This document shows positions 2,170-50,507 of a stretch of 64,000 nucleotides of DNA, piece by piece. Both the position numbers and the translations under genes were made by a program. Origin of the DNA: Phytohabitans rumicis (GTDB lineage Bacteria; Actinomycetota; Actinomycetes; Mycobacteriales; Micromonosporaceae); NCBI RefSeq assembly GCF_011764445.1, contig NZ_BLPG01000001.1, positions 5,845,001-5,909,000 on the forward strand, in the 5' to 3' direction. The notes beneath the pieces are model-generated. The model was not told the DNA's origin and searched no databases. It worked only from the letters and a program-made list of their open reading frames with translations. Position 1 is the stretch's first letter; each line of letters opens with the position of its first letter.

Positions 2170-2275
2170 GCGCCGATCAAGGCTTTCCCCGCCGATCAAG
2201 GGCAAACGGCCGTGGATTGGAGATCAAAGCACGGCCATATGCCCTTGATCGACGGCAAGGCCCTTGATCGGCGCC
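2170..2275 (+). repeat. Family A palindromic repeat, copy 1
   Basis: This is a compound palindrome between the rrn terminator and the convergent gene ending at 2286. Outer arms GCGCCGATCAAGG (from 2170) and CCTTGATCGGCGC (ending 2274) enclose inner arms with GATCAAGGGC (from 2194) and GCCCTTGATC (ending 2250). The asymmetric centre reads GTGGATTGGAGATCAAAGCA. Copies 2 (16651) and 3 (32241, inverted) keep the same core almost unchanged. No coding potential is seen. Confidence 0.85.
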
Positions 2276-16650: not shown

Positions 16651-16763
16651 CCGCGCGCCGATCAAGGACTTGTGCGTCGATCAAGGGCAAACGGCCGTGG
16701 ATTGGAGATCAAAGCACGACCGTTCGCCCTTGATCGACGGGAAAGTCCTTGATCGCCGCGCGG
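16651..16763 (+). repeat. Family A palindromic repeat, copy 2
   Basis: The outer arms are near-perfect: CCGCGCGCCGATCAAGGAC (16651-16669) and GTCCTTGATCGCCGCGCGG (16745-16763). The inner core runs from 16679 to 16738 and matches copy 1 at 35 of 36 positions over GGCAAACGGCCGTGGATTGG and the following 16 bases. It has the same orientation as copy 1. It lies between two co-directional radical-SAM-associated genes that are normally neighbours. Confidence 0.86.
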
Positions 16764-32198: not shown

Positions 32199-32243
32199 CT
32201 CTCGTTGCGCGCGCTCTCTCGTTGCGCGCGCTCTCTCGTTGCG
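32199..32243 (+). repeat. 17-bp tandem repeat
   Basis: CTCTCGTTGCGCGCGCT is repeated at 32199-32215 and 32216-32232, with a partial third copy from 32233. It joins the degV 3' end to copy 3 of family A. Confidence 0.85.
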
Positions 32244-32327
32244 TCGATCAAGGGCAAATGGTCGTGCTTTGATCTCCGATCCACGACCGTTTGCCCTTGA
32301 TCGACGGGCTTTTCCTTGATCGGCGGG
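32241..32327 (-). repeat. Family A palindromic repeat, copy 3 (inverted)
   Basis: This copy carries the family A core in the opposite orientation: GATCAAGGGCAAATGGTCGT, then GCTTTGATCTCCGATCCACG, then the arm CCGTTTGCCCTTGATCGACG. The asymmetric centre differs from the reverse complement of copies 1 and 2 at only one or two positions. A further CCTTGATCGGCGGG arm follows at 32314-32327. Confidence 0.84.
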
Positions 32328-37857: not shown

Positions 37858-37931
37858 AAGATCCCGGTGATCAGGGACTTCCTCCCCTGACGCGCCGCGA
37901 CACGCCAGAGCCATTCCCTGATCACCGGGGA
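37858..37931 (-). repeat. Family B palindromic repeat, copy 1
   Basis: Perfect 15-bp arms CCCGGTGATCAGGGA (37863-37877) and TCCCTGATCACCGGG (37915-37929) enclose a centre with GCGCCGCGACACGCCAGAGC. Its reverse complement matches copy 2 at 49519 at most positions over about 73 bases, including the flanking AAGATC. It lies between rpsT and the kinase-like gene. Confidence 0.87.
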
Positions 37932-39013: not shown

Positions 39014-39622
39014 ATGAACACCGTCGAGTTCTGGAGCCTCATCGCAGAGGCTGGCAACCGACCGGCCGGCGTGGTCGCCGATCTCGCCAGCCGTGAGCCC
39101 GCCGACATCGTGGCCTTCGACCGGCACCTGCGGCGGGTCCTGGCCGCCTCGCAGAGCGTCGACCTGTTCGGCGCCGCCTACCTCGTCAACGGCGGCTGCT
39201 CCCACGAGGGTTTCGACGCCTTCCGGGGCTGGCTGATGGCCCAGGGGCGGGAGGCGTTCGCCCGGGCGGTCGGCGACCCTGACTCGCTGGCCGACCTCCC
39301 GGCGGTGCGGCGGGCGGCGGTCACCGGCGAGGAGCTGGAAAGCCCGGCCATGCTGCGGGCCGCGGCGGAGGCCCACCTCAAGGTCACCGGCACCGACCTG
39401 CCAGCCGGTCCGGAGGCCACACCAAGGGCCCTGCCAGATGGCTCGCTGGGCTCGCTTCGGCCCAGGCTGACGGCAGACTCCGGGCTTGACGCTCCGCGCC
39501 AAGCCTCGGACTCCGCCGTCACCTGGGCCAACACCGACGACTTCTGGGACTTCGACGACGAGGAGCAGGTGGCGCAGCGGCTGCCGCGCCTGGCCGCGCT
39601 CTTCAACCAGGCACCGGACTGA
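39014..39622 (+). CDS. DUF4240 protein
   Basis: 202 residues. MNTVEFWSLIAEA, the helix around DIVAFDRHLRRVL, and LFGAAYLVNGGCSHEGFDAF followed by FRGWLMAQGREAF fit DUF4240, a family of unknown function often annotated near WGR-like proteins. The C-terminal third (about 125-175) is a variable linker that includes DGSLGSLRPRL, encoded by a 21-bp segment also found in the enoyl-CoA hydratase gene at 45058. It diverges from the kinase-like gene. Confidence 0.86.
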   Translation: MNTVEFWSLIAEAGNRPAGVVADLASREPADIVAFDRHLRRVLAASQSVDLFGAAYLVNGGCSHEGFDAFRGWLMAQGREAFARAVGDPDSLADLPAVRRAAVTGEELESPAMLRAAAEAHLKVTGTDLPAGPEATPRALPDGSLGSLRPRLTADSGLDAPRQASDSAVTWANTDDFWDFDDEEQVAQRLPRLAALFNQAPD

Positions 39623-48322: not shown

Positions 48323-48359
48323 CCCGGGACAGCGCGAGAACATGAGGACACGGAACGCA

Positions 48360-49493
48360 GTGGCCAAGGACTACTACGGGATTCTCGGTGTGAACCGGGA
48401 CGCATCCGACGACGAGATCAAACGCGCATACCGGAAACTGGCTCGCCAGTATCACCCGGACGTCAACCCGGATCCGGATGCGCACGAGAAGTTCAAGGAC
48501 ATCAACGCCGCGTACGAGGTGCTGTCCGACGACCAGAAGCGGCAGATCGTCGACCTCGGCGGCGACCCACTCGCGCCCGGCGGCGGCGGTCCGGGCGGTG
48601 GTCCCGGCGCGGGTCCGTTCGTCGGATTCCAGGACATTATGGACGCGTTCTTCGGCACCGCGGCGGGCACGCGCGGGCCGCGGTCGCGCACCCGGCCGGG
48701 CGCCGACGCGATCTTGCGGCTGGAGCTCGACCTGGTCGAGACCGCGTTCGGCGTCGAGGCCCCGATCACCGTCGACACCGCCGTCCTGTGCACCACGTGC
48801 TCCGGCGCGGGCACCGCGGCCGGCACCCACCTGGCCACCTGCGAGGCGTGCGGCGGGCGCGGCGAGGTGCAGTCGGTGCAGCGCACGTTCCTGGGCCAGG
48901 TGGTCTCGTCCCGCCCGTGCACGGTCTGCCAGGGGTACGGCACGGTCATCCCGCACGCGTGCGCGACCTGCGGCGGCGACGGCCGGGTCCGCACCCGCCG
49001 GTCACTGACCGTCAAGATCCCGGCGGGCGTCGAAGACGGCATGCGCATCCGGCTGGCCCAGCAGGGCGAGGTCGGGCCGGGCGGCGGCACCGCCGGCGAC
49101 CTGTACGTCGAGATCCACGAACGGCCGCACGACGTCTACTCGCGCAAGGGCGACGACCTGCACTGCCGGGTCACCGTCCCGATGACGGCCGCCGCGCTCG
49201 GCACCCGGCTGACCATCAAGACGCTCGACAGCGAGGAGCAGCTCGACGTCAAGGCCGGCACCCAGCCCGGCGCGACGTTGCGGCTGCGCGCCCGGGGCGT
49301 ACCGCACCTGCGTGGCACCGGCCGCGGCGACCTCTTCGTCCACCTGGACGTAAGAACCCCCACCAAACTAGACCCCGACCAAGAGCGCATCCTGAGAGAC
49401 TTCGCCAAAACAAGAGGCGAGGAAGTAGCCGAGTTAACCAAACAAGGCGGCTTCTTCAGTCGCATGCGCGACGCCTTCAACGGCCACGCGTGA
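48360..49493 (+). CDS. dnaJ: Chaperone protein DnaJ
   Basis: 377 residues. J domain with HPD (32-34), a Gly-rich linker, a zinc-binding region with four CxxCxGxG repeats ([32 protein letters not shown]) and the substrate-binding C-terminal domains. Works with DnaK in protein folding. Start GTG 48360 gives the usual [13 protein letters not shown] 48342 is upstream in frame. From about 49350 the codon usage shifts abruptly to A-ending codons (AGA, AAA, GTA, CTA, CAA) and includes TTA at codon 359. The stop overlaps a copy of the rsmE start sequence. Confidence 0.95.
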
Positions 49494-49518
49494 GCGCGCC
49501 GCTCTCCCCCTGTCTCTC

Positions 49519-49590
49519 CCCGTTGATCAGGGAACGGCTCTGGCGTGTTGCGGCGTGGCAGGGGAGCGGCTCCCTGATCACCGGGATCTT
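49519..49590 (+). repeat. Family B palindromic repeat, copy 2
   Basis: Arms TGATCAGGGA (49524-49533) and TCCCTGATCA (49571-49580) enclose GGCTCTGGCGTGTTGCGGCG. This is close to the reverse complement of copy 1, including the outer ACCGGGATCTT. It lies just after dnaJ. Confidence 0.87.
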
Positions 49591-49710
49591 GTGAGCGCGC
49601 GCGGCGGCGTGGCGCCGTTTTGTCAGCGGCGCCGCGAACCAGAGCCCACCGCGGACCCGGTCGCCGCTGGGAAAACGGTGCCTACGGGCGCCGCCGCGCG
49701 CGCTCACAAG
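49588..49710 (+). repeat. Long inverted repeat upstream of rsmE
   Basis: The perfect 22-bp ends CTTGTGAGCGCGCGCGGCGG... and its complement (49588-49609, 49689-49710) are followed inwards by weaker pairing: GCGCCGTTTT with AAAACGGTGC, and CAGCGGCG with CGCCGCTG. The whole can fold into one long hairpin about 120 bases in length. No coding potential is seen. Confidence 0.85.
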
Positions 49711-49718
49711 AAGGCGCT

Positions 49719-50432
49719 GTGAGCGCGCCGCTCTTCCTCGTTGACGCGCTGCCCAGCGGGGACACCGCCACGCTGGGCGGGGCGGAGGGGCATCACGCGG
49801 CCACCGTCCAGCGGCTGCGGGTCGGGGAGGATCTGGTCCTCGCCGACGGGCGCGGGGGCACGGCCACCGCCGTGGTCACCGCCGCCGGCCGCGGCAGCCT
49901 CGACCTGCGCATCATCTCCCGGGGGTACGCCGAGGCGCCCGACCCGCGACTGGTCGTGATCCAGGGCATCGCCAAGGGTGATCGGGGCGAGCTGGCCGTA
50001 CAGGCGATGACCGAGGTGGGTGTCGACGAGATCGTGCCCTGGGCGGCGGTCCGCTCGGTGGTGCAGTGGAAAGGCGAGCGGGGCACCCGCGCCCACGACA
50101 AGTGGGTGGCGACCGCCCGCGAGGCGGCCAAGCAGGCCCGCCGCCCCTGGCTGCCGACCGTGGCGCCGCCGGTGTCGACCCGCGAAGCGACCGTGCGGGC
50201 CACCCTGGTCCTGCACGAGGAGGCGGAGACCCGGCTGTCGACTGTGGACCTCCCGGCCGCTGGCGAGATCGCGCTCGTGGTCGGCCCCGAGGGCGGCATC
50301 GCCCCGGAGGAGTTGGCCGCCTTCGAGTCGGCCGGCGCAAGCTTGGTCCGCCTGGGCGAGCAGGTCCTCCGCACCTCCACGGCCGGCGTGGCGGCCCTTT
50401 CGGTGCTATCCGCGCGGCTGGGACGGTGGTAG
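49719..50432 (+). CDS. rsmE: 16S rRNA (uracil1498-N3)-methyltransferase
   Basis: 237 residues. The N-terminal PUA-like part (GGAEGHHAATVQRLRVGEDL) and the C-terminal SPOUT fold with the knot motif VVGPEGGIAPEELAAFES and LGEQVLRTSTAGVAAL identify RsmE. It methylates U1498 of 16S rRNA in the 30S subunit. GTG 49719 has only a weak ribosome site (AAGGCG). A family B repeat begins five bases after the stop. Confidence 0.94.
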   Translation: MSAPLFLVDALPSGDTATLGGAEGHHAATVQRLRVGEDLVLADGRGGTATAVVTAAGRGSLDLRIISRGYAEAPDPRLVVIQGIAKGDRGELAVQAMTEVGVDEIVPWAAVRSVVQWKGERGTRAHDKWVATAREAAKQARRPWLPTVAPPVSTREATVRATLVLHEEAETRLSTVDLPAAGEIALVVGPEGGIAPEELAAFESAGASLVRLGEQVLRTSTAGVAALSVLSARLGRW

Positions 50433-50436
50433 GGCC

Positions 50437-50507
50437 GCGTTGATCAGGGACCAGCTCTCTCGGCGCGCCGCAACACGCCCGAGTTACTCCCTGATCAACA
50501 GGGTGGT
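50437..50507 (-). repeat. Family B palindromic repeat, copy 3
   Basis: Perfect 12-bp arms GTTGATCAGGGA (50439-50450) and TCCCTGATCAAC (50488-50499), with GCGCCGCAACACGCC in the centre, same orientation as copy 1. The right arm lies inside the 3' end of the GH3 gene and encodes its last residues (LLIRE) and stop. Confidence 0.87.

Follow-up and report, generated by a model that had tools for sequence, protein, structure and literature searches.

The dnaJ and rsmE genes of Phytohabitans rumicis are separated by 225 nt, and the first 16 bases of rsmE occur a second time across the dnaJ stop. How was this junction opened, and how might the two genes have stayed coupled? We have analysed the junction in a window of 64,000 nucleotides from contig NZ_BLPG01000001.1 (all coordinates are those of the window). 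A preliminary description had proposed either an insertion with target duplication or slippage that built a regulatory hairpin before rsmE. The parts of the junction are as follows.

48342–49493, + strand: dnaJ, with its stop TGA inside the GTGA at 49490–49493 (Pfam DnaJ, DnaJ_C and DnaJ_CXXCXGXG; translation)
49490–49505, + strand: 16-mer copy 1 (GTGAGCGCGCCGCTCT), putative original dnaJ-stop/rsmE-start overlap site, single copy in congeners
49490–49594, + strand: ORF-A (predicted, 34 aa), starting in the dnaJ GTGA and stopping in the GTGA that opens ORF-B (translation)
49517–49590, + strand: element A, a REP-like dispersed repeat of 74 bp with outer stem TGATCAGGGA/TCCCTGATCA (own-genome searches, alignment A1)
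49587–49718, + strand: element B, a MIRU-like cassette with a long hairpin and a 23-bp perfect terminal palindrome (126 bits with model R1)
49591–49722, + strand: ORF-B (predicted, 43 aa), its GTG overlapping the ORF-A stop and its TGA overlapping the rsmE GTG
49708–49714, + strand: AAGAAGG, Shine-Dalgarno-like (putative role), part of B's conserved right end (consensus of the family, CCAGGAGGCACA)
49719–49734, + strand: 16-mer copy 2, the rsmE start, an exact match to copy 1
49719–50432, + strand: rsmE, 16S rRNA m3U methyltransferase family (Pfam Methyltrans_RNA and PUA_4)

Composition of the junction and its empty sites

Our analysis confirmed the duplication of the first 16 bases of rsmE that had been noticed before, and the two exact copies lie 229 nt apart. 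Direct repeats of 16 nt were found in 6 of 600 random 600-bp pieces of the window; the length alone is unusual, not extreme, and the duplication is counted as real because congeners carry one copy only. A third, partial copy (GTGAGCGCGC, 49591–49600) is present because the left end of element B naturally begins with GTGAGCGCGC. Element A, listed in the preliminary description as the second copy of a repeat family, recurs in the window at 37858–37931 and 50431–50504. The palindrome of element B covers 125 bp (49587–49711), and its ends, first given as 22 bp, are matched at 23/23 positions (49587–49609 and 49689–49711).

The chain dnaJ-GTGA-ORF-A-GTGA-ORF-B-GTGA-rsmE is unbroken, and at every GTGA one ORF ends in frame and its successor begins. 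The distance from GTG to GTG is 101 nt in ORF-A (2 mod 3), and that from DTG to DTG is 128 nt in ORF-B. Element B has no direct contact with the dnaJ stop at this junction, and the in-frame passage through element A could be luck, its chance being about 1/5 (1/3 for the length multiplied by about 17/31 for a frame open through A). No promoter was found in the segment by a sigma-70 consensus scan, which covers this promoter type only, no T-tailed terminator was present on the plus strand, and an Rfam search at gathering score gave no match.

The dnaJ/rsmE junctions of the genus were located by an RsmE search and then read from the DNA. Four other Phytohabitans species (G001–G004) have the empty site predicted by the preliminary description, with one copy of the 16-mer region and an NGHA or NGHQ stop that overlaps the rsmE start by (T/G)TGA. 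A second empty site was identified at ureB/ureC, which overlap by ATGA in P. suffuscus (GAGCTATGAACCGCC) and are arranged as GTGA-B-ATGA in P. rumicis (CACTGTGACC-B-CACTATGAACCGCC). At the level of sequence comparison, insertion is thereby demonstrated at both loci. We infer that the ancestral dnaJ and rsmE shared a GTGA and were coupled in translation; the first GTGAGCGCGCCGCTCT is most plausibly the start that rsmE had originally.

P. suffuscus carries a different, independent insert at the same dnaJ/rsmE GTGA (L023, L042), flanked by GTGAGCC repeats. It measures 49 nt from stop to start and 53 nt from GTG to GTG (2 mod 3), and contains an ORF of 18 aa that ends in a TGA overlapping the start of rsmE. 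This 53-bp insert was rejected as a repeat family, as its matches were weak only and mostly to coding-like sequence.

Placement, frame and fold of element B

The genome search for the inverted repeat revealed about 30 copies of element B in P. rumicis; 10 were found by DNA searches, 26 and three short ones by a covariance model, and further ones by a pattern search. Relatives are present in all six Phytohabitans genomes (one genome per species), in each of which the right-end motif GAGCGAACCAGGAGGCACAGC has 11–24 copies, against 0–2 for a reversed-pattern control. Model R1 found no B at E<=1e-9 in 77 genomes of other Micromonosporaceae genera, and some of these genera have the short right-end motif in low copy number. 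Units of B often stand in tandem with a spacing of 125–128 nt. Copies of B at unrelated loci, like those of A, are roughly 70–90% identical. Minimal versions of about 27–40 nt without the hairpin core, GTGAGCGAGCG...GAGCGAACCATSAGGCACAGC, were seen at L254, L268, L274 and L275 (near 1450–1521).

Among the 23 P. rumicis copies with a left DTGA, the stop of the upstream same-strand gene is exactly this DTGA in 20, compared with 6.2% of 437 control DTGA sites within those loci; coding calls for the flanking genes come from a GC3 heuristic, not from a trained gene finder. Wherever an upstream gene could be called, B nearly always points in the direction of transcription. B carries an ORF that opens at the left DTG and runs through the element. 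Of the 31 copies with a DTGA at both ends, a script found 26 whose DTG-to-DTG distance is 2 mod 3 and whose ORF ends in the right-hand DTGA, its TGA and the next start overlapping by 4 nt; the count became 28 once the correct left DTGA had been chosen by hand in L210 and L256. The copies are mutually related, and the independent points are fewer than the copies, with six length classes of 59, 62, 104, 125, 128 and 131 nt, all 2 mod 3. With such a length, the stop of the cassette itself overlaps the start that follows. The three remaining copies are 126 or 129 nt long, lengths divisible by 3. Further copies, at least seven, read into the gene downstream in frame, as do most of the copies that lack a right DTGA. 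In L206, L207, L208, L181, L183, L186 and L194 the ORF of B is joined in frame to this gene, which apparently gains a new N-terminus.

In the aligned B copies, 94.5% of the cells of the hairpin are paired and 16 of 40 pairs have compensatory changes, a level reached in 0 of 500 shuffles. The predicted fold has −131 kcal/mol over 181 nt (z −8.7). In this fold the AAGAAGG, 4 nt upstream of the rsmE GTG, is partly paired with the left stem arm of B, where the ORF-B start lies as well. Codon positions of the B ORF vary evenly, and selection on the peptide, for which third-position bias was looked for, is not visible. The covarying hairpin and the even variation suggest that frame and fold are kept and the peptide is not. 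Covariation could also come from template-switch correction of the palindrome instead of RNA function, and an open frame easily arises in GC-rich DNA.

Element A and the origin of the junction

About 59 strong copies of element A were found in the P. rumicis genome, and relatives in four of the five congeners, with none in G004. The outer stem of A (10 bp) hardly varies, and the copies lie mostly at gene 3′ ends, rarely in divergent gaps. The longest repeats flanking A have a mean of 6.6 nt against 6.2 nt in mismatched flanks, and target duplication as a general feature of A was rejected.

A resembles REP elements in being a short extragenic palindrome of high copy number that stands mostly near the 3′ ends of genes; REP are defined by GTAG/CGTC tags (PMC3733652). 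The A consensus, however, has by inspection neither GTAG nor CGTC as an end tag. Mobilisation by RAYT was rejected, the genome having no Y1 (RAYT-type) transposase in a PF01797 search that was positive in 5 of 14 controls. Element A behaves like a REP without the tag and without a genomic RAYT.

Several other A or A-like sequences were observed. The copy at 50431–50504 (− strand) overlaps the 3′ end of a neighbouring glycosidase gene (stop at 50484) and gives its last codons and stop (LLIRE*); the G001 counterpart of this 3′ end is without A and has a different terminus. A-like hairpins (GTTGATC...GATCAC) stand at the dnaJ/rsmE junction of six Catellatospora species and of Micromonospora pattaloongensis (L060, L078, L079, L082, L089, L090 and L098, near 2900–2990), which suggests about three arrivals of A-like elements at this junction. 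Weak A-like palindromes in the window (2186–2261, 16668–16746, 32235–32313 and 39458–39528) are possibly another REP subfamily.

The explanation that we prefer, with a probability of about three in four, is that B, with its strong hairpin, is a MIRU-like cassette for translational coupling, and that A and B opened an ancestral dnaJ/rsmE overlap. Two mobile repeats would have entered, A as a REP-like hairpin at the dnaJ 3′ end and B directly on the rsmE start. B would target DTGA stop/start overlaps and duplicate the DTGA, and would bring a short open frame and a Shine-Dalgarno-like right end. A ribosome leaving the upstream gene could then re-initiate on the cassette, melt the hairpin and re-initiate on the next gene; judging from fold and frames, ribosomes translating ORF-B would unfold the stem and make the rsmE start accessible. 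In this way the insertion would cost little expression.

A purely transcriptional or RNA-stability role of B (attenuator, terminator or RNase III site), with an incidental frame rule, appears unlikely to us. Such a role would suit the very stable fold and the strong compensatory change, but not the length rule over six classes or the exact DTGA placement, and the conserved AGGAGG-like right end beside starts and the plus strand without a T-tailed terminator also argue against it. The regulatory hairpin proposed earlier is retained as a hairpin and not as a stand-alone leader, since the architecture points to translational coupling.

Insertion of A and B as one composite element with a 16-bp target duplication, consistent with the direct repeat around the entire segment and with the empty sites of congeners, is improbable, as A adjoins B in no other sampled copy and a GTGA boundary lies between A and B too. 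What the preliminary description said of insertion agrees with the empty sites; its single event with a clean 16-bp duplication does not agree with two unrelated repeat families, of which A lacks flanking duplications elsewhere. Replication slippage or tandem duplication would leave direct and inverted repeats within a short stretch, but both parts are dispersed families with copies at many unrelated loci, and we give a local origin of the hairpin almost no credence.

Under the preferred two-element explanation, B elements seem to duplicate only the DTGA or a few bases more. If A arrived first, a 12–16-bp duplication came along, a range given because CTCT also fits the pyrimidine tract preceding many A copies, and B then landed on the rsmE GTGA; if B was first, its left end was split by A. 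Of these two orders A before B is slightly favoured, because copy 1 agrees with the start of rsmE at all 16 positions.

Relation to known repeats and meaning

B shares with the Correia/NEMIS and ERIC hairpin MITEs its terminal inverted repeats and the hairpin expected in the transcript, but we know of no DTGA placement, gene-aligned orientation or frame rule in those elements. Element B was further compared with MIRU (mycobacterial interspersed repetitive units), the repeats used for typing tuberculosis bacteria. MIRU have been described as mobile repeats whose insertion at start codons leaves an internal ORF coupled to the next gene at −4 nt (2025 review, PMC12548453). Tandem MIRU lie between genes of operons, for example senX3-regX3, with units of 77 and 53 bp (PMC4213456), lengths that are likewise 2 mod 3. 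B is like them in its placement at DTGA stop/start overlaps within operons, in the 4-nt overlap of its internal ORF with the next start, in its insertion into empty sites and in its tandem arrays. However, MIRU range from 40 to 100 bp (PMC2734929), whereas B is mostly 104–131 nt, with few copies of 59–62 nt, belongs to a different genus and family, and has a long covarying hairpin. B would therefore work like a MIRU and yet is not classed as one, the length range being different and the comparison covering placement, internal ORF, empty sites and tandem arrangement.

That Actinobacteria evolved mobile coupling cassettes independently of MIRU, combining DTGA targeting, a frame rule and self-complementary RNA, possibly with an RNA or single-stranded intermediate, is a tentative and rather doubtful suggestion; such an intermediate would explain the near-uniform orientation of B along transcription. 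Our open-literature search gave no account of such elements in Micromonosporaceae, which is weak evidence, subscription papers being mostly outside its scope.

As far as we found, elements that insert in overlapping genes without breaking translational coupling have so far been described mainly in mycobacteria. The Phytohabitans elements would add to these a second set, from a different family, in which copies are numerous, insertions are species-specific and empty sites have been identified. Empty and filled sites of B offer natural before/after pairs in which the effect of an insertion on coupled translation could be measured, and they hint that stop/start overlaps are places where small mobile DNA can land safely time and again.
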